Source of the DNA: Ruminococcus sp.
GTDB lineage: Bacteria > Bacillota > Clostridia > Oscillospirales > Acutalibacteraceae
DNA length: 34,424 nucleotides
Reading direction: 5' to 3'
NCBI GenBank assembly: GCA_017481885.1
Contig: JAFUOM010000106.1
Location: forward strand, 1-34,424
The notes below the pieces were generated by a model. That model had not been told where the DNA came from. It saw only the letters and a program-made list of their open reading frames with translations, and made no database searches. Of the stretch, positions 25,528 through 33,530 are shown one piece after another; positions within the stretch are counted from its first letter, which is position 1; every line of letters begins with the position of its first letter. Both the position numbers and the translations under genes were made by a program.

Positions 25528-27138
25528 TTATCCAAGTGAGTCTTTTTTATTTGTAACAACAGTTGCGTTGTAGCAATCAAACTTAGCTTCAATATTTCTA
25601 GGCAGTGTTTTCTTAGTTAATAAGCTCACGATTGGAACAAGGATAAGTCCGCCTACCATAGCAAAGACACCCGAGTAAAGTGAGTTTTTGAACACAAAGC
25701 CTAAGATACCGCCGTCAAGTGTAATAAAGCCTACTCCGATGCAAAGCTGAACGATTTCCAATCCTGTACCAAAGATAAAGCTTGCGATTACAGCGGCTTT
25801 TGTAGTCTTTTTCCAGTACAGACCGTAGAGGAAAGGAGCCAAGAAAGCACCTGCTAAAGCACCCCATGACACACCCATCATTTGAGCAATGAACACTGAA
25901 TCTTTCCAGATGGAGTCTTTAAGAATAGCGATAACAGCAGAAATAGCGATGAAGAATACGATGAAGATTCTCATAATAAGAACACTCTTTTTGTCATCAA
26001 TCTTCTTTTTCTTGCCGATAGCAGGCTTAACAACATCGAGAGTAAGAGTTGAAGCAGATGTTAAAACAAGGGAAGATAGAGTTGACATTGAAGCGGCAAG
26101 TACCAGTACAACAATGAGTGCTACGATAACAGGAGCAAGGTCAGACAGCATTGTCGGGATAACCTTGTCAAACATAACAGCACCGCTTTCTGATATGTAA
26201 CCGGCATTAGTCATTTCTTCAGCATAAAGCTTGCCAAAACCACCCAAGAAGTAGCAACCGCCTGCAACGATGATAGCGAAAAGTGTTGATATGATTGTAC
26301 CCTTTTTGATAGAATCCTCGTTTTTGATTGAGTAGAACTTTCCAACCATTTGTGGAAGACCCCAAGTGCCAAGGGATGTGAGCATTATAACAAAGAAAAG
26401 AAATACAGGGTCAGGTCCGAACATAGATGTGAACTCTGGACCTGCTTCAACTTCAAGAGCTTTAACAGCAGCGTTGAAACCGCCGTTTTGCTGTAAAACA
26501 GAAAGGATAACAGCAACGATACCAATAAGCATAATGATACCCTGAATAAAGTCGTTGATAGCAGTAGCCATATATCCGCCAAAGATTACGTAAACACCTG
26601 TAAGCACAGCCATAATAACAACTACAGCCCAGTAAGGAACAGAAAAAACGTTGTTAAAAAGGGAAGACAAACCGTTGTAAAGTGAAGCTGTATACGGAAT
26701 GAGGAACACAAACACGATAAACGAAGCGATAACCTTTAACTTGCTTGAGTCGTATCTTTTCTCAAAAAAGTCAGGCATAGTTTTTGAATTTAAGTGTTGA
26801 GTCATAACTCTTGTTCTTCTGCCAAGCACTACCCACGCAAGCAGTGAGCCGATAAAAGCGTTTCCAAGACCAATCCAGGTGGAAGCAAGACCGAAGTTCC
26901 AGCCGAACTGACCTGCATAACCAACGAAAATAACAGCCGAGAAGTACGAAGTACCAAAGGCAAAAGCAGTAAGCCATGGACCTACTGTACGACCACCAAG
27001 CACAAAAGAGTTAACATCGGTAGCGTGTTTTCTACAGGCAAAACCAACGCCTATCATAAGTGCAAAGAAACACAAAAGCATCGGAAGTGCAATCCATATT
27101 GTGGTTGGGTTTGGTTGAGCGACGGATAGATTTTGCAT
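25528..27138 (-). CDS. Sodium:solute symporter (SSS family), substrate unknown
   Basis: A 536-residue membrane protein with about 13 hydrophobic segments in the PutP-like layout. Typical segments include FVLGGRTVGPWLTAFAFGTSYFSAVIFVGYAG near the N-terminus and LAASMSTLSSLVLTSASTLTLD in the middle, which contains conserved Ser/Thr for Na+ binding in the family. It should import an organic solute with Na+. It diverges from the CoA ligase-iorAB operon, and its promoter shares an operator-like motif with those operons, so an aryl acid such as phenylacetate is a reasonable guess; proline or another substrate is possible. The ribosome site before ATG is weak (AAAGCTGG). Confidence 0.88.
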   Translation of the reverse strand: MQNLSVAQPNPTTIWIALPMLLCFFALMIGVGFACRKHATDVNSFVLGGRTVGPWLTAFAFGTSYFSAVIFVGYAGQFGWNFGLASTWIGLGNAFIGSLLAWVVLGRRTRVMTQHLNSKTMPDFFEKRYDSSKLKVIASFIVFVFLIPYTASLYNGLSSLFNNVFSVPYWAVVVIMAVLTGVYVIFGGYMATAINDFIQGIIMLIGIVAVILSVLQQNGGFNAAVKALEVEAGPEFTSMFGPDPVFLFFVIMLTSLGTWGLPQMVGKFYSIKNEDSIKKGTIISTLFAIIVAGGCYFLGGFGKLYAEEMTNAGYISESGAVMFDKVIPTMLSDLAPVIVALIVVLVLAASMSTLSSLVLTSASTLTLDVVKPAIGKKKKIDDKKSVLIMRIFIVFFIAISAVIAILKDSIWKDSVFIAQMMGVSWGALAGAFLAPFLYGLYWKKTTKAAVIASFIFGTGLEIVQLCIGVGFITLDGGILGFVFKNSLYSGVFAMVGGLILVPIVSLLTKKTLPRNIEAKFDCYNATVVTNKKDSLG

Positions 27139-27331: not shown

Positions 27332-28969
27332 ATGACAATTGTACATTTACTGGAAAGAAACGCTAAAGAATTCCCACAGGATATAGCTTTGGTTGAAATC
27401 AACCCTGAACAGCCCGAAACACGACGACTCACATGGAACGAGTACGAGCTTGTTGAACCTACTCACCGTGTTCCGCATTATCGCCGTGAAATCACTTGGG
27501 AGGTTTTCAACGAAAAAGCTAACCGTTGTGCGAATATGCTCAAACACAACGGTATCGGCAAGGGCAAAAAGGTCGCTATCCTTCTGATGAACAGCCTTAT
27601 GTGGCTTCCTATTTATTTTGGTATTTTAAAGACAGGTGCACTGGCTGTACCGCTTAATTTCAGATATTCACCAGACGAAATCGACTACTGTCTTGATTTA
27701 GCTGAGGCTGATGTGCTGATTTTCGGACCTGAGTTTATCGGTCGAGTTGAGCGTATCGCTAACAAGGTTTCTAAAAAATGCACTCTTATTTACTACGGTG
27801 GCGGTTGCCCTGCATTTGCTGAGGATTACCGTGACCTCGTATCTGAGCATTCCGGCAACTTCCCTGAGTGTGAACTCGAAGAATCTGACGATGCCGCAAT
27901 TTACTTCTCATCAGGTACAACCGGCTTTCCAAAAGCTATTTTACATAACCACGAAAGCTTAATTCACTCTTGCAGAGTTGAGCAAAAACACCACAGCCAG
28001 TCTAAAGACGACTGTTTCTTGTGCATCCCACCGCTTTACCACACAGGTGCAAAAATGCACTGGTTCGGAAGTTTGCTCACTGGTTCAAAGGCTGTTATCT
28101 TAAAGGGTACTCAGGCTAAGAACATTTTAGAAGCTGCAAGCTCTGAAAAATGTACAATCGTATGGCTTTTAGTTCCTTGGGCACAGGATATTTTAAACGC
28201 TTTAGATAGAGGCGAAGTAAACCTCAGCGATTACGACCTTTCTAACTGGAGACTGATGCACATCGGTGCTCAGCCTGTTCCACAGAGCCTTATCAAGCGT
28301 TGGCTTGAGTATTTCCCAGAGCATCAGTACGATACAAACTACGGTCTGTCCGAGTCAATCGGTCCTGGTGCAGTTCACTTAGGTGTAGAAAATGTCCGCA
28401 AAGTTGGTGCAATCGGTGTCCCTGGTTACGGCTGGGAAGTTAAGATTGTTGACCCTGAGGGCGTTGAAGTTAAACAGGGCGATGTTGGCGAGCTTTGCTT
28501 AAAAGGACCTGGCGTAATGACCTGCTACTATCGTGACGAAGAAGCTACAAAAGCTACTTTAAAAGACGGCTGGCTCTATTCAGGCGATATGGCTATGCAG
28601 GATGATGAAGGCTTTATCTATCTTGTTGACCGTAAAAAGGACGTTATCATCACAGGCGGCGAGAACCTCTATCCTGTACAGATTGAAAACTTCCTTGCGG
28701 CTCATAGTAAAATAAAGGACGTTGCAGTAATAGGTCTTCCTGATGCACGATTGGGAGAAATCGCAACAGCTATCATCGAAATCAAACAGGATATGACCTG
28801 TACAGAAGAAGAAATCAACGAGTTCTGTCTTGATTTACCACGTTACAAGCGTCCACGTCGCATTATCTTTGCCGATGTACCTCGTAACCCAACAGGTAAA
28901 ATCGAAAAGCCGAAGCTCAGAAAAATCTACGGCGGCGAGGGTCTTGTTGACTCACAGAACAAGTCTTAA
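27332..28969 (+). CDS. AMP-forming acyl-CoA ligase
   Basis: A 545-residue enzyme of the ANL superfamily that joins a carboxylic acid to CoA using ATP. The phosphate-binding loop is YFSSGTTGFPKA (residues 191-202). The hinge and adenylate-binding motifs are YSGDMAMQDDEGFIYLVDRKKD, and the C-terminal catalytic Lys lies in PTGKIEKPKLRK. A stretch of about 20 residues near the N-terminus (around 36-55, YELVEPTHRVPHYRR) is longer than in many relatives. It heads the operon with iorA and iorB, so an aryl or branched acid is a likely substrate; fatty acids cannot be excluded. AAAGAGG lies 10 nt before ATG. Confidence 0.9.
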   Translation: MTIVHLLERNAKEFPQDIALVEINPEQPETRRLTWNEYELVEPTHRVPHYRREITWEVFNEKANRCANMLKHNGIGKGKKVAILLMNSLMWLPIYFGILKTGALAVPLNFRYSPDEIDYCLDLAEADVLIFGPEFIGRVERIANKVSKKCTLIYYGGGCPAFAEDYRDLVSEHSGNFPECELEESDDAAIYFSSGTTGFPKAILHNHESLIHSCRVEQKHHSQSKDDCFLCIPPLYHTGAKMHWFGSLLTGSKAVILKGTQAKNILEAASSEKCTIVWLLVPWAQDILNALDRGEVNLSDYDLSNWRLMHIGAQPVPQSLIKRWLEYFPEHQYDTNYGLSESIGPGAVHLGVENVRKVGAIGVPGYGWEVKIVDPEGVEVKQGDVGELCLKGPGVMTCYYRDEEATKATLKDGWLYSGDMAMQDDEGFIYLVDRKKDVIITGGENLYPVQIENFLAAHSKIKDVAVIGLPDARLGEIATAIIEIKQDMTCTEEEINEFCLDLPRYKRPRRIIFADVPRNPTGKIEKPKLRKIYGGEGLVDSQNKS

Positions 28970-29010
28970 TATAATAGTAATAATCGCTTATATTGAAAGG
29001 GTTTTATGAT

Positions 29011-30735
29011 ATGAAGAAATTATTGATTGGTAACCAGGCTGTAGCCTGCGGTTTACACGATGGCGGTTTAGGTGTAGTTTCCAGCTACCCTGGCACACCA
29101 TCAACTGAAATTACAGAATTCTTATCCAAGTACGATGACATCCACTCAGAGTGGGCACCTAACGAAAAGGTAGCCTGCGAGGTTGCTTTCGGTGCATCTT
29201 TAGCCGGTGCACGTTCAGCTTGTGCAATGAAGCACGTTGGTTTGAACGTAGCTGCTGACCCACTTTTCACACTTTCATACACAGGTGTTAACGGTGGTAT
29301 GGTTATCTGCGTTGCTGACGACCCTGCTATGTATAGTTCACAGAACGAGCAGGATTCACGTCATTACGCTATCGCTTCAAAGGTTCCTATGCTCGAGCCT
29401 GCTGATTCACAGGAAGCATACACATTTGCAAAGTCAGCTTTCGAGCTTTCAGAAAAGTACGACACTCCTGTACTTTTAAGAATGTGCACACGTATTGCTC
29501 ACAGCCAGTCTATCGTTGAGTTCTCAGAGAAAATCGAAGCTAAGCTCAAAGATTACGAAAAGACTCCTGCAAAATACATTATGATGCCTGGCAACGCTAT
29601 CAAGCGTCATCCTTTCGTTGAAGAAAGAACTCAGAAACTCACTGACCTTGCTGAAAACTGTATGTACAACACAGTTGAGTATAACTCTGACGAAATCGGT
29701 ATCATCACATCTGGTTGTTCATATCTTTACGTTAAAGAGGTAATGGGTGACAAGGCGTCTATCCTTAAAATCGGTATGCCAAACCCACTTCCTGTTGAAA
29801 CTATCAAGGATTTTGCATCTAAAGTTAAGAAGCTCTACGTTATTGAAGAGCTCGACCCAATTATCGAAAACCACGTAAAATCACTCGGTATCGACGTTGT
29901 TGGCAAAGAGAAGTTCTCTATCTTAGGCGAGTTCTCACAGCAGACAATCGCCAAGGCTTTCGATATGGACGACAAGTGCGGTGTTAGTGCTGACTCTGCT
30001 ATTCCAATGCGTCCGCCAATGATGTGTGCAGGTTGCCCACACAGAGGTATGTTCTACACACTTTCTAAAAATAAAATCACAGTTCACGGTGACATTGGTT
30101 GCTACACACTTGGTGCAGTAGCTCCTCTTAACGCACTTGACTCAACTCTTTGTATGGGTGCTTCAATCTCAGGCTTACACGGCTACAATGCTGCTCGTGG
30201 TGAAGAAGCTGAGAAGAAGTCAGTCGCTGTTATCGGCGACTCAACATTTATGCACTCTGGTATGACAGGTTTAGTTAACGTTGCATATAACGCTACAAAC
30301 TCAACAGTTATCATCCTTGACAACTCAATTACAGGTATGACAGGTCACCAGCAGAACCCAACAACCGGTTATAACATCAAGGGTGAAGTAGCGGCTAAAG
30401 TTGACCTCGAAGCACTTTGTAAAGCTCTTGGCATCAACCGTGTAAGAGTTGTTGACCCTTATGACTTAAAAGCTTGCGAAACAGCAGTAAAAGAAGAACT
30501 CGCAGTTTCAGAGCCATCAGTTATTATTTCACGTCGTCCTTGCGTACTCTTAAAGTCAGTAAAAGCACAGCCATCATTAAACGTAGATGCAGACAAGTGT
30601 AAGTCTTGCAAGCGTTGTATGGGTCTTGGCTGTCCAGCTATCAGTATGAAAGACGGCAAAGCTAAAATCGACAACACATTGTGCGTAGGCTGTGGCGTAT
30701 GTAAACAGCTTTGTGCATTCGATGCTATCGTATAA
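29011..30735 (+). CDS. iorA: Indolepyruvate:ferredoxin oxidoreductase, alpha subunit
   Basis: A 574-residue subunit that binds thiamine diphosphate and two 4Fe-4S clusters. With IorB it interconverts arylpyruvates and aryl-acetyl-CoA plus CO2 and reduced ferredoxin. Visible are SSYPGTPSTEI near residue 24, the CPHRG motif (342-346), the thiamine diphosphate region GDIGCYTLG (360-368) to GDSTFMHSGMTG (409-420), and the ferredoxin cysteines C530/533/536/541 and C558/561/564/568. Length is normal for IorA. ATG at 29011 has AAAGGG 9 nt upstream, better than TTG 28993. The neighbouring CoA ligases and the Phe T-box suggest it runs in the reductive carboxylation direction here. Confidence 0.95.
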   Translation: MKKLLIGNQAVACGLHDGGLGVVSSYPGTPSTEITEFLSKYDDIHSEWAPNEKVACEVAFGASLAGARSACAMKHVGLNVAADPLFTLSYTGVNGGMVICVADDPAMYSSQNEQDSRHYAIASKVPMLEPADSQEAYTFAKSAFELSEKYDTPVLLRMCTRIAHSQSIVEFSEKIEAKLKDYEKTPAKYIMMPGNAIKRHPFVEERTQKLTDLAENCMYNTVEYNSDEIGIITSGCSYLYVKEVMGDKASILKIGMPNPLPVETIKDFASKVKKLYVIEELDPIIENHVKSLGIDVVGKEKFSILGEFSQQTIAKAFDMDDKCGVSADSAIPMRPPMMCAGCPHRGMFYTLSKNKITVHGDIGCYTLGAVAPLNALDSTLCMGASISGLHGYNAARGEEAEKKSVAVIGDSTFMHSGMTGLVNVAYNATNSTVIILDNSITGMTGHQQNPTTGYNIKGEVAAKVDLEALCKALGINRVRVVDPYDLKACETAVKEELAVSEPSVIISRRPCVLLKSVKAQPSLNVDADKCKSCKRCMGLGCPAISMKDGKAKIDNTLCVGCGVCKQLCAFDAIV

Positions 30736-30747
30736 GGAGGAGTAAAA

Positions 30748-31320
30748 ATGGAAACTAAAAGTATTATGATAGTTGGTGTTGGCGGACAGGGAAGTCTGCT
30801 TGCATCAAAACTCTTGGGTAGACTCCTCATGGACGAAGGCTACGACGTAAAAGTATCAGAAGTTCACGGAATGAGCCAGCGTGGCGGTTCTGTTGTTACA
30901 TATGTAAGATTTGGCGATAAGGTTTACTCACCAATCATCACTGAGGGTGAAGCTGACATTATCATTTCATTTGAAAAGTTAGAAGCAGCACGCTACGCAA
31001 AGTTCCTCAAAAAAGACGGTCTTATCGTTGTTAACACACAGCAGATTGACCCAATGCCTGTAATTATTGGTGCGGCTACATATCCTGAAGATGTTCTCAC
31101 TGAGCTCACAGACAAAGGCTTAGCGATTGAAGCTATGGATGCATTGTCACTTGCAATTGAAGCTGGTTCACCAAAGGCAGTTAACATCGTGCTTATGGGC
31201 AGAGCTGCAAAGCAGTTTGACATCCCATACGAACGTTGGATTAAGGCTATCGAGAACACAGTAGCAGAGCGTTTTGTTGAGATGAACAAAAAGGCTTTTG
31301 ACTTGGGATATAATTATTAA
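30748..31320 (+). CDS. iorB: Indolepyruvate:ferredoxin oxidoreductase, beta subunit
   Basis: A 190-residue partner of IorA, of the gamma-domain type of 2-oxoacid oxidoreductases, which helps form the CoA site. The start KSIMIVGVGGQGSLLASKLLG and the EVHGMSQRGGSVVTYVRFG segment are characteristic. Length is normal (about 190-200). It starts 12 bp after iorA with AAGGAGGAG before ATG, so the two subunits are made together. No terminator hairpin is evident right after it, and the next transcription unit has its own promoter at 31357. Confidence 0.95.
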   Translation: METKSIMIVGVGGQGSLLASKLLGRLLMDEGYDVKVSEVHGMSQRGGSVVTYVRFGDKVYSPIITEGEADIIISFEKLEAARYAKFLKKDGLIVVNTQQIDPMPVIIGAATYPEDVLTELTDKGLAIEAMDALSLAIEAGSPKAVNIVLMGRAAKQFDIPYERWIKAIENTVAERFVEMNKKAFDLGYNY

Positions 31321-31385: not shown

Positions 31386-31720
31386 ACTAAACAACAAAGA
31401 CGTTTGAACGGAAATTAGTACCCGAAAATATCATTTCAGAGAGCTGCGGCTGGTGTGATGCAGTAATGTAAAGTCGGTGAATTCATTCCGTGAGTTGTTG
31501 GCTGAAGGTAAAGTGAGCAAAACAATCCATTAAAAATCTGATTTGGATATACTTATTCACTCTAGGCTGTGTAGGTCAAACGGGTTCGACCGTTATATCG
31601 ACAAGGGTGTGTTTGCACTCGGAGGCTGTTGTCGCGAGATAACAGTAAATAGAGGTGGTACCACGGGATTTTTCTCGTCCTCTGTATTCCGAACGGATGC
31701 AGAGGACGTTTTTGTTTTTT
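31386..31720 (+). ncRNA. T-box leader (riboswitch), specifier UUC, phenylalanine
   Basis: A tRNA-sensing leader that lets transcription continue when tRNA-Phe is uncharged. Stem I base: CAACAA (31392-31397) pairs with TTGTTG (31495-31500). GGAA...AGTA (31410-31420) faces GAA-TTC-A-TTCC (31479-31489), which places the specifier TTC at 31482-31484. The apical AGAGAG and CTGCGGCTGGTGTGATGCAG (from 31438) are typical. The T-box AGGTGGTACCACGG (31653-31666) carries UGGU, complementary to a tRNA 3' ACCA with discriminator A, as in tRNA-Phe. The antiterminator forms from AGAGG and CCTCT. Confidence 0.9.
31677..31720 (+). terminator. Conditional terminator of the T-box leader
   Basis: GTCCTCTG (31677-31684) pairs with CAGAGGAC (31700-31707), with an inner TCCG/CGGA extension, followed by GTTTTTGTTTTTT. 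The 5' arm is also part of the antiterminator, as expected for T-box control. Confidence 0.88.
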
Positions 31721-31774: not shown

Positions 31775-33082
31775 ATGCAGAATTATTATCAAAAAGAAAT
31801 TGAAACAATGCCTGTTGAAGAAATGAAAAAGCTTCAATCCGAAAAGCTCGTTAAACAGGTGAAGCACGTGTATGAGAATGTTCCTTACTACCGTGATTTA
31901 ATGGACAAGAAAGGCGTTACTCCTGACGATATTAAGGGTATCGAGGATTTACACAAGCTTCCGTTTTTAACAAAGGCAGATTTAAGAGACGCTTATCCAT
32001 ACGGACTTTTAGCAAAGCCACTCTCTGAGTGTGTTCGTATCCAGTCAACATCAGGTACAACAGGCAGACGTGTTGTAGCTTTTTATACACAGAACGACGT
32101 TGATTTGTGGGAAGACTGCTGTGCAAGAGCTATTGTTGCCGCTGGTGGTACAAACGAAGACGTTTGTCAGGTAGCATACGGCTACGGTCTTTTCACAGGT
32201 GGCCCTGGTCTTAATGGCGGTTCGCACAAGGTTGGTTGTCTTACACTTCCAATGTCATCAGGTAACACCGAGCGTCAGATTCAGTTTATGACTGATTTAA
32301 GTGCCACAATTCTTTGTTGTACACCATCATATGCCGCTTATATCGGCGAAACTTTACAGGAAAAGGGCTTAGGTCCTGACGATATTCCACTCAAAGCAGG
32401 TATCTTCGGTGCTGAACCTTGGACAGAAGAGATGCGTCGTGGTATCGAGAAAACTCTCGGCATCAAGGCTTACGACATCTATGGTCTTACAGAAACATCA
32501 GGTCCTGGCGTAGCGTTTGAATGTTCTGAGCAGACAGGTATGCACATCAACGAAGACCACTTCCTTGCAGAAATCATCGACCCTGACACAGGCGTAGTTC
32601 TCCCGGAAGGTAGCAAGGGTGAGCTTGTGTTCACATCTCTTGACAAAGAAGCATTCCCACTGCTACGTTACCGTACACGTGACATCTGTGTGCTTTCTAG
32701 AAAGAAGTGCTCATGCGGACGTACACTCATCAAAATGGCTAAGCCAATGGGCAGAAGCGACGATATGATGATTATCCGTGGCGTAAACGTATTCCCAAGT
32801 CAGATTGAAACAGTTCTCTTAAACGAAGGCTATCAGCCAAACTACCAGATTGTTGTTGACCGTAAGGGCAACACAGATACATTCGATGTTAATGTTGAGA
32901 TGAACGCTGACCAGTTCACAGATACAGTAAGTGGCGTTACAGTTAAGGAAAAAGCTCTTGCTAACGCAATGAAAACAATGCTCGGCATTAACCCAACCGT
33001 ACACTTGGTAGCTCCAAAGTCAATTGTCCGCAGCGAGGGCAAGGCTGTTCGAGTTATCGACAAGCGTAAGTTACACGATTAA
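31775..33082 (+). CDS. paaK: Phenylacetate-CoA ligase
   Basis: A 435-residue cytosolic enzyme that converts phenylacetate, ATP and CoA to phenylacetyl-CoA. The family layout is clear: KHVYENVPYYRDLMD near residue 30, P-loop STSGTTGRR (residues 91-99), the AEPWTEEMRRGIE and YDIYGLTETSGPG segments, and the C-terminal GRSDDMMIIRGVNVFPSQIE motif. Length is typical (about 430). AAAGGA precedes ATG. It lies behind a phenylalanine T-box and next to iorAB and is followed by an ACT protein, which points to phenylalanine synthesis from phenylacetate rather than degradation; no ring-oxidation genes are present in the window. Related aryl acids may also be used. Confidence 0.95.
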   Translation: MQNYYQKEIETMPVEEMKKLQSEKLVKQVKHVYENVPYYRDLMDKKGVTPDDIKGIEDLHKLPFLTKADLRDAYPYGLLAKPLSECVRIQSTSGTTGRRVVAFYTQNDVDLWEDCCARAIVAAGGTNEDVCQVAYGYGLFTGGPGLNGGSHKVGCLTLPMSSGNTERQIQFMTDLSATILCCTPSYAAYIGETLQEKGLGPDDIPLKAGIFGAEPWTEEMRRGIEKTLGIKAYDIYGLTETSGPGVAFECSEQTGMHINEDHFLAEIIDPDTGVVLPEGSKGELVFTSLDKEAFPLLRYRTRDICVLSRKKCSCGRTLIKMAKPMGRSDDMMIIRGVNVFPSQIETVLLNEGYQPNYQIVVDRKGNTDTFDVNVEMNADQFTDTVSGVTVKEKALANAMKTMLGINPTVHLVAPKSIVRSEGKAVRVIDKRKLHD

Positions 33083-33098: not shown

Positions 33099-33530
33099 AT
33101 GTCATTAAAACAGCTTAACGTTTTTGTAGAAAACAAAAAGGGTGCTCTTGTAGAAATCACTGAAACTTTAGCATCACACGACATCAATATGCGAGCTCTT
33201 TCAATCGCAGACACAGAAGAGTTTGGTATTCTCCGCCTTATCGTTAATGACAACGAAACAGCAGCTCAGATGCTCGCTGACAAAGGCTATCTTATCAAGA
33301 CAACAGAGGTTGTCGGTGTTAAAATCGGCGATGCTCCTGGTAAGCTTTCAACAGCTTTAGCAGTTCTTGACAAAGAGGATATAAACGTTGAGTATCTCTA
33401 CGCATTTATGGCTCGTACCGAAAAGCATGCTTACGTAGTATTAAGAGTTGCTGACAACGCCCAAGCTGAAAAAGCACTCGAAGATGCAGGTTATCATATG
33501 ATTACCGACGCTGATATCAACAAGCTTTAA
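33099..33530 (+). CDS. Tandem ACT domain protein
   Basis: A 143-residue protein made of two ACT domains: residues 1-66 (QLNVFVENKKGALVEITETL) and 70-140 (GVKIGDAPGKLSTALAVLDK). ACT domains bind amino acids, so this may sense phenylalanine or another aromatic product and regulate PaaK or IorAB. Such proteins often accompany paaK in anaerobes. I chose ATG at 33099, with AAAGGGG upstream and 16 bp after paaK; the longer frame from 33024 would overlap paaK by 59 bp. The operon ends at a strong hairpin. Confidence 0.9.
   Translation: MSLKQLNVFVENKKGALVEITETLASHDINMRALSIADTEEFGILRLIVNDNETAAQMLADKGYLIKTTEVVGVKIGDAPGKLSTALAVLDKEDINVEYLYAFMARTEKHAYVVLRVADNAQAEKALEDAGYHMITDADINKL

Follow-up and report, generated by a model that had tools for sequence, protein, structure and literature searches.

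Introduction

The closest described counterpart of the leader reported here is the T-box of the tRNA-Phe class, as found on pheST, which has the same architecture, specifier codon (UUC), bulge (UGGU) and transcription terminator, and a T-box of this class is also present on pheS in the same genome (L003). With regard to metabolism, the closest counterpart is the route to aromatic amino acids by indolepyruvate ferredoxin oxidoreductase (IOR) and an arylacetate-CoA ligase, which is known from methanogenic archaea and suggested for Bacteroides (PMC13285125, accessible part) and which shares with the present locus the placement of iorAB beside an AMP-forming ligase. In the accessible part of that study, a biosynthetic role is argued to be possible for the Bacteroides IOR located next to an arylacetate-CoA ligase. 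The same gene trio, iorAB-paaK, is included for Geobacter in a table that lists nucleotide sequences conserved 5' of biosynthetic operons, but it is assigned there to tryptophan and not to phenylalanine, and the footnotes available name a T-box only for leuA (PMC2700814). The formation of phenylalanine from phenylacetate in rumen cultures is credited to Allison 1965 in the accessible text of PMC7356843. The biochemistry leading from phenylacetate to phenylalanine is, hence, old, whereas the control of paaK by tRNA-Phe is without an earlier report in the literature searched: no report of T-box or tRNA-Phe control of paaK was found there, with most subscription papers lying outside the search. 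In uncultured gut clostridia, the genes for this conversion and their control have so far rested on similarity.

Here, we describe a T-box in a 34,424-nt stretch of DNA from a Ruminococcus sp. assembly, which was analysed as a whole and is referred to as the window. It differs from the pheST class in controlling an arylacetate-CoA ligase instead of a synthetase, a transporter or a shikimate enzyme, and also in having one extra P1 pair and an apical insert in stem II. Compared with the IOR route of methanogens and Bacteroides, as far as the source describes it, the window adds a tRNA-Phe T-box, an ACT-pair protein and a second ligase. We consider it highly probable that a transcriptional tRNA-Phe T-box controls paaK and the ACT gene for the synthesis of phenylalanine from phenylacetate. 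A tRNA-Phe switch on paaK represents regulatory evidence that this role is anabolic, and the finding points to genes for a conversion that rumen microbes have long been known to carry out.

Results and Discussion

A full-length T-box leader upstream of paaK

The Rfam covariance model RF00230, which had been proposed as a check of the sequence-only reading, matched a complete T-box at 31394..31685 on the forward strand, between iorB (end 31320) and the paaK start at 31775, with 89 nt from the match to paaK. The score was 102.6 bits against a gathering score of 93, with an E value of 2.3e-22 to 8.9e-22, and the match covered model positions 1-219, that is, the full length of the model. The claim of a full T-box layout was thus borne out, with both the antiterminator and the terminator being present. 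Stem I exhibited the AGUA/GAA loop-E pair, the specifier loop GAA-UUC-A and the distal AGAGA...GGUG. The 5' strand of P1 (ACGGAA, 31408..31413), which lies between the K-turn and the specifier loop, pairs with 31486-31491, and the leader alignment and P1 pairing place its 3' strand UUCCGU, together with the GAG of the K-turn, at 31486..31494. The specifier codon UUC (Phe) is located at 31482..31484 and followed by A31485. Rfam and the leader alignment agreed on a stem III hairpin (ACGG GUUCGA CCGU) at 31580..31593. The antiterminator (31651..31683) carries the T-box bulge UGGUACC, in which UGGU at 31656-31659 would pair with the 3' ACCA of the tRNA, and an intrinsic terminator hairpin at 31676-31708 with the U tract after it (31676..31720 in all) was supported by the fold and the alignment. 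All these elements are on the forward strand. The terminator overlaps the antiterminator, the 5' strand of the terminator being common to both, so that the two folds are mutually exclusive. The segment 31659-31715, which contains the terminator, folded at -24 kcal/mol (z -4.6, with 0/200 shuffles as good); the antiterminator folded at -10.7 kcal/mol (z -1.6, with 11/200 shuffles as good), which is not striking alone. The covariance score, the codon-anticodon match, the UGGN bulge and the exclusive antiterminator and terminator all identify the leader as a T-box.

Conservation and spread of the leader

We compared paaK leaders among relatives, also as had been proposed with the sequence-only reading, using an alignment of 27 leaders that comprised that of the window, 24 located directly upstream of paaK and 2 located upstream of iorA; 25 of them (the window and 24 relatives) were chosen without regard to the codon. 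As a result, both UUC and UGGU were found to be invariant (27/27). The P1 helix was paired in 97.5% of cells, with 3 pairs changed on both sides, and the terminator in 98.6% of cells, likewise with 3 doubly changed pairs. Among the loci of the best 80 nearest PaaK relatives, the T-box motif was present 111-170 nt before paaK in 24, and although the motif did not constrain the last base of UGGN, this base was U in 24/24. All of the 12 motif-bearing paaK leaders tested among these 24 were confirmed by Rfam. At the gathering score, Rfam reported a T-box in 16 of the 17 sources tested; the motif at L062, located before iorA, was without an Rfam report at this score. No such motif was found directly before paaK in the other 56 of the best 80 loci, one of which (L058) has only 13 nt upstream. 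Six of these 56, including the Ruminococcus flavefaciens records L072 and L081, were scanned with Rfam at E <= 0.01, and none of them showed a T-box on the fetched stretch. T-box control is therefore confined to part of the group.

The bulge UGGU had been said to suit discriminator base A73 of tRNA-Phe, and A73 was indeed found in 7/7 copies of tRNA-Phe of congeners, which came from 6 of the 15 genus genomes searched by pattern for tRNA-Phe(GAA); the same pattern search found no tRNA-Phe in the window's own, incomplete assembly. The regulatory argument had, however, been presented as strong and direct, and, while its conclusion is supported, this part of its evidence is weaker than stated, because A73 is common to several tRNAs of this genome. 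Furthermore, UGGU also occurs in T-boxes before trpB (L172) and trpE (L201), although tRNA-Trp of the window's genome has G73, and TBDB permits wobble at the discriminator (PMC7778990, accessible part). The discriminator match is, hence, taken as supporting but not decisive.

Gene context and probable direction of the pathway

The regulated gene, paaK (31775..33082, forward strand), encodes a PaaK-like arylacetate-CoA ligase of the AMP-binding family. Its score of 520.4 bits against TIGR02155 is under the curated cut-off of 646.3, so that the product is PaaK-like but not filed as an equivalog; the nearest solved structures are the phenylacetate-CoA ligases 2y27, 2y4o and 4r1l. From these relatives and the T-box, we infer that its substrate is phenylacetate. 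It is followed by a gene (33099..33530, forward strand) for an ACT-domain pair protein (ACT_8; PF19571, 83.2 bits), a candidate amino-acid sensor, which is located after paaK in 74 of the best 80 loci. This protein may act on the route as a feedback element or a regulatory partner. Upstream on the same strand are iorA (28993..30735; TIGR03336, 715.3 bits, cut-off 650.9) and iorB (30748..31320; NF005325, 279.6 bits, cut-off 230), which encode the alpha and beta subunits of IOR, both above the family cut-offs. On the fetched stretch, iorB was found upstream of paaK in 43 of the best 80 loci, some of the contigs being short.

Further upstream is a second AMP-forming acyl-CoA ligase gene (27332..28969, forward strand), here named ligA. 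Neither a Tyr T-box nor any other T-box was found before ligA within the window. Its orthologues (63-67% identical) are behind GAA-UAC T-boxes in L168, L169 and L197, which were selected on Rfam score irrespective of the codon, and the L287 orthologue follows a Phe T-box. In L169, the standard distance makes the Tyr reading clear; L168 and L197 have a 7-nt distance with ACA (Thr) as the alternative frame, against which the Thr tRNAs here have U73 facing a bulge of UGGU. The gene beyond, on the reverse strand (25528..27138), encodes a sodium:solute symporter (SSF; PF00474), which is a candidate arylacetate importer; its relative in L022/L026 (46% identical over 327 aa) is directly behind a UAC (Tyr) T-box. 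The gene order of symporter, second ligase, iorAB, paaK and ACT fits arylacetate assimilation. It was also observed that, in L022/L026, the UAC T-box and the SSF symporter gene are located ~2.1 kb upstream of paaK and are followed by a UUC T-box and paaK, so that two tRNA switches (Tyr and Phe) are together in one cluster.

For the operation of this locus, we infer the following scheme with respect to tRNA binding, substrates, direction of flux and the role of the ACT protein. Uncharged tRNA-Phe, read by UUC and UGGU, would stabilise the antiterminator and allow paaK and the ACT-pair gene to be transcribed, and the terminator would form when phenylalanine is plentiful. Phenylacetate, which the adjacent symporter perhaps imports, would be converted to phenylacetyl-CoA by PaaK, and reductive carboxylation by IorAB would yield phenylpyruvate, from which an aminotransferase would form phenylalanine; the ACT protein may add feedback. 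Thus, PaaK and IOR probably make phenylpyruvate from phenylacetate when phenylalanine is short, and the position of the switch suggests that a cell in such a shortage replenishes its phenylalanine from phenylacetate. The earlier proposal that phenylacetate is a phenylalanine precursor here is strengthened by iorAB, by the Tyr and Phe T-boxes of the ligA orthologues, by the Tyr T-box of the symporter relative and by the T-boxes for Ile and Val found with two further ligases of this genome, described below. Phenylacetate would be an additional source of phenylalanine and not the only one, since a prephenate dehydratase gene is present on contig C38 of this genome; no T-box was found on C38.

The ligase and IOR might instead salvage another arylacetate (indoleacetate or 4-hydroxyphenylacetate), with the Phe T-box reporting general aromatic starvation. 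Such an assignment would be in line with the position of PaaK under the phenylacetate equivalog cut-off, with the activity of IOR on phenyl-, hydroxyphenyl- and indolepyruvate given in the accessible part of PMC13285125, and with the listing of Geobacter iorAB-paaK under tryptophan in the table of PMC2700814. However, we regard it as unlikely: the nearest solved structures are phenylacetate-CoA ligases, and Trp (UGG) T-boxes, which do exist in the genome and the family, were found on none of paaK, ior, ligA and the symporter in the leaders examined, in which the codons are those of Phe and Tyr.

It is very unlikely that a genuine Phe T-box controls an oxidative removal of aromatic amino acids of the Stickland type, in which PaaK and IOR would convert phenylpyruvate via phenylacetyl-CoA to phenylacetate. 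An oxidative branch is described in the accessible part of PMC13285125, where the IOR of Bacteroides thetaiotaomicron is cited as also taking part in the formation of phenylacetate from phenylalanine. However, a T-box switches genes on when charged tRNA-Phe is scarce, which would be senseless for phenylalanine breakdown. According to the same part of that source, moreover, AMP-forming ligases typically favour acyl-CoA synthesis, and many related oxidoreductases adjoin ADP-forming ligases or a phosphate acyltransferase with a kinase. The Tyr, Ile and Val T-boxes on parallel ligases or the symporter also argue against oxidation and for phenylalanine synthesis from phenylacetate. For gut metagenomes, the tRNA-Phe switch on paaK is a warning that paaK together with ior should not automatically be taken as aromatic breakdown.

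Frame of the specifier codon

The sequence-only reading had derived UUC from the pattern GAA-NNN-A-stem-GAG. The codon was supported, although the pattern alone also allows UCA (Ser), leaving an ambiguity of one base. In the specifier loop of the window, GAAUUCAUUCCGUGAG, the frame UUC-A is separated from GAG by 6 nt of stem and the frame UCA-U by 5 nt, so that UUC ends 7 nt before GAG and UCA would end 6 nt before. For calibration, we used 80 T-boxes from family relatives, which came from the higher-scoring part of a list ordered by score and not from a random draw, and the amino acid of the downstream gene was named by sequence motifs or by eye for 55 of them. The reading rule (GAA, a spacer of 0-2, a codon of the named amino acid and GAG 5-8 nt on) gave unique readings for 44 of the 55, none for 7 and several for 4. 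In all of these 44 siblings, the codon ended 6 nt before GAG, a spacing rule that, applied to the window, would give UCA. Directly after the codon, 29 of the siblings had A, 10 had C and 5 had G, whereas none had U.

The P1 helix of the window consists of six continuous pairs, the innermost of which (A-U) is present in 27/27 leaders, so that the specifier loop ends with UUC-A; the priority rule of TBDB, which takes positions 2-4 counted from the bulge end as the specifier (PMC7778990, accessible part), hence reads UUC. Counting against the Phe reading, UUC is followed by C in 12 of the 27 leaders and by A in the other 15, while a purine is the usual rule (PMC7583486, accessible part). Shorter stems were found in L288 and L289, located before ior-paaK-ACT operons, in which GAA-UUC-C-UUCCU-GAG places UUC at the standard 6-nt distance. 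In L287, where the T-box precedes ligA-iorA, both readings (UUC and UUU) are Phe. The 10-nt layout of the window, with UUC and the 7-nt spacing, was also found in L286, before an operon for a TrpX-like ABC transporter (NF041285, 203.7 bits against a cut-off of 390), and one of the two possible readings of a pheS T-box (L160) has the 7-nt spacing as well. Furthermore, UUC with the standard spacing was found in front of the DAHP synthase genes of L291-L293, of which L291 was assigned by TIGR00034 (261.8 bits, cut-off 173.2) and L292 and L293 by the same sequence start. As L286-L289 and L291-L293 were found by a pattern demanding GAAUUY, their evidence lies in the downstream gene and the spacing, not in the codon. 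On these comparisons of sequence, the frame is decided for Phe by the 6-bp P1, the base after the codon and the orthologous operons with a shorter stem, and the earlier assignment of UUC, which is kept in all the aligned leaders, stands.

That the T-box reads tRNA-Ser via UCA (GAA-U-UCA-U with a 5-bp P1), and that paaK, hence, answers to serine, was rejected as most improbable: although the codon would then end 6 nt before GAG after a 1-nt spacer, the commonest sibling layout (36 of the 44 uniquely read), although the A or C after UUC would give UCA or UCC, both Ser, and although the discriminator wobble permitted by TBDB and the UGGU before trpB and trpE weaken the bulge as a criterion, this frame requires after the codon a U that none of the 44 calibrators has, leaves open a P1 A-U that is complementary in every aligned leader, sets a UGGU bulge against the G73 of the tRNA-Ser found in the genome (n=3), disagrees with UUC at the standard distance in L288/L289 and with UUC or UUU in L287, and would act on paaK and an ACT gene, which are not serine genes. 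No serS T-box for comparison was found by motif in 30 serS loci of the 148 genomes searched.

The T-box pattern search that yielded the shorter-stem operons matched at least 138 of 394 genomes, mostly by chance, and a reversed control also matched often; 11 matches were picked by eye (L286-L296). Rfam confirmed L286-L289, and the other six genuine-looking picks were judged by motif only. L296 was rejected as no T-box, and the leader of L290 was the same as that of L018. The TrpX-like transporter of L286 may, given its leader, import phenylalanine.

Other T-boxes of the genome

The genome of the window (1.94 Mb, 88% complete) gave 11 T-box matches at E <= 0.001. Codons were readable in 10 of them, by the 6-nt spacing rule and, for paaK, by the separate argument above: pheS UUC, cysE/cysS UGC, alaS GCU, thrS ACC, ilvA AUC, trpB UGG, an isopropylmalate-synthase-like gene CUC, and, for two AMP-forming ligases that carry HTH and cupin domains at the N-terminus, AUC and GUA. 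The remaining T-box, on aspS (L011), gave no readable codon. Among the 10 readable T-boxes, those of pheS and paaK were the only Phe-type ones seen.

The two HTH-cupin-AMP-ligase genes are in tandem on contig C16 (L297), behind Ile (AUC) and Val (GUA) T-boxes (L005, L007). The first matched MbcS best (433.7 bits, under the cut-off of 850), and the second is truncated where the contig ends; they are candidates for the activation of 2-methylbutyrate and isobutyrate towards Ile and Val. In L174, a 2-oxoacid:ferredoxin oxidoreductase gamma gene is behind a T-box with a codon read by eye as AUC (Ile).

The chances appear even that T-boxes in this gut-clostridia family mark a set of reductive-carboxylation pathways, by which amino acids would be rebuilt from the fermentation acids of the community with the ACT-pair protein as a feedback part. 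It is an equally balanced question whether its members would be the T-boxes of the Phe and Tyr type on arylacetate ligases, IOR and the symporter together with those of the Ile and Val type on MbcS-like ligases and the 2-oxoacid:ferredoxin oxidoreductase. The logic is one: acids would be converted to CoA thioesters and, by carboxylation, to 2-oxoacids, with control exerted by the tRNA for the amino acid that is formed. The specifier codon is a cheap predictor of substrates for acyl-CoA ligases and transporters and, if the set is real, would name the substrate of each unassigned ligase.

The apical insert in stem II of the window's leader (31510..31564, forward strand, ends approximate) is ~53 nt long and missing from 26/26 aligned relatives; the insert in stem II at L034 is shorter than, and different from, that of the window. 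An imperfect copy, 84% identical, is located at C72:15279-15333 in the same genome, and the insert looks like a dispersed repeat inside the riboswitch.
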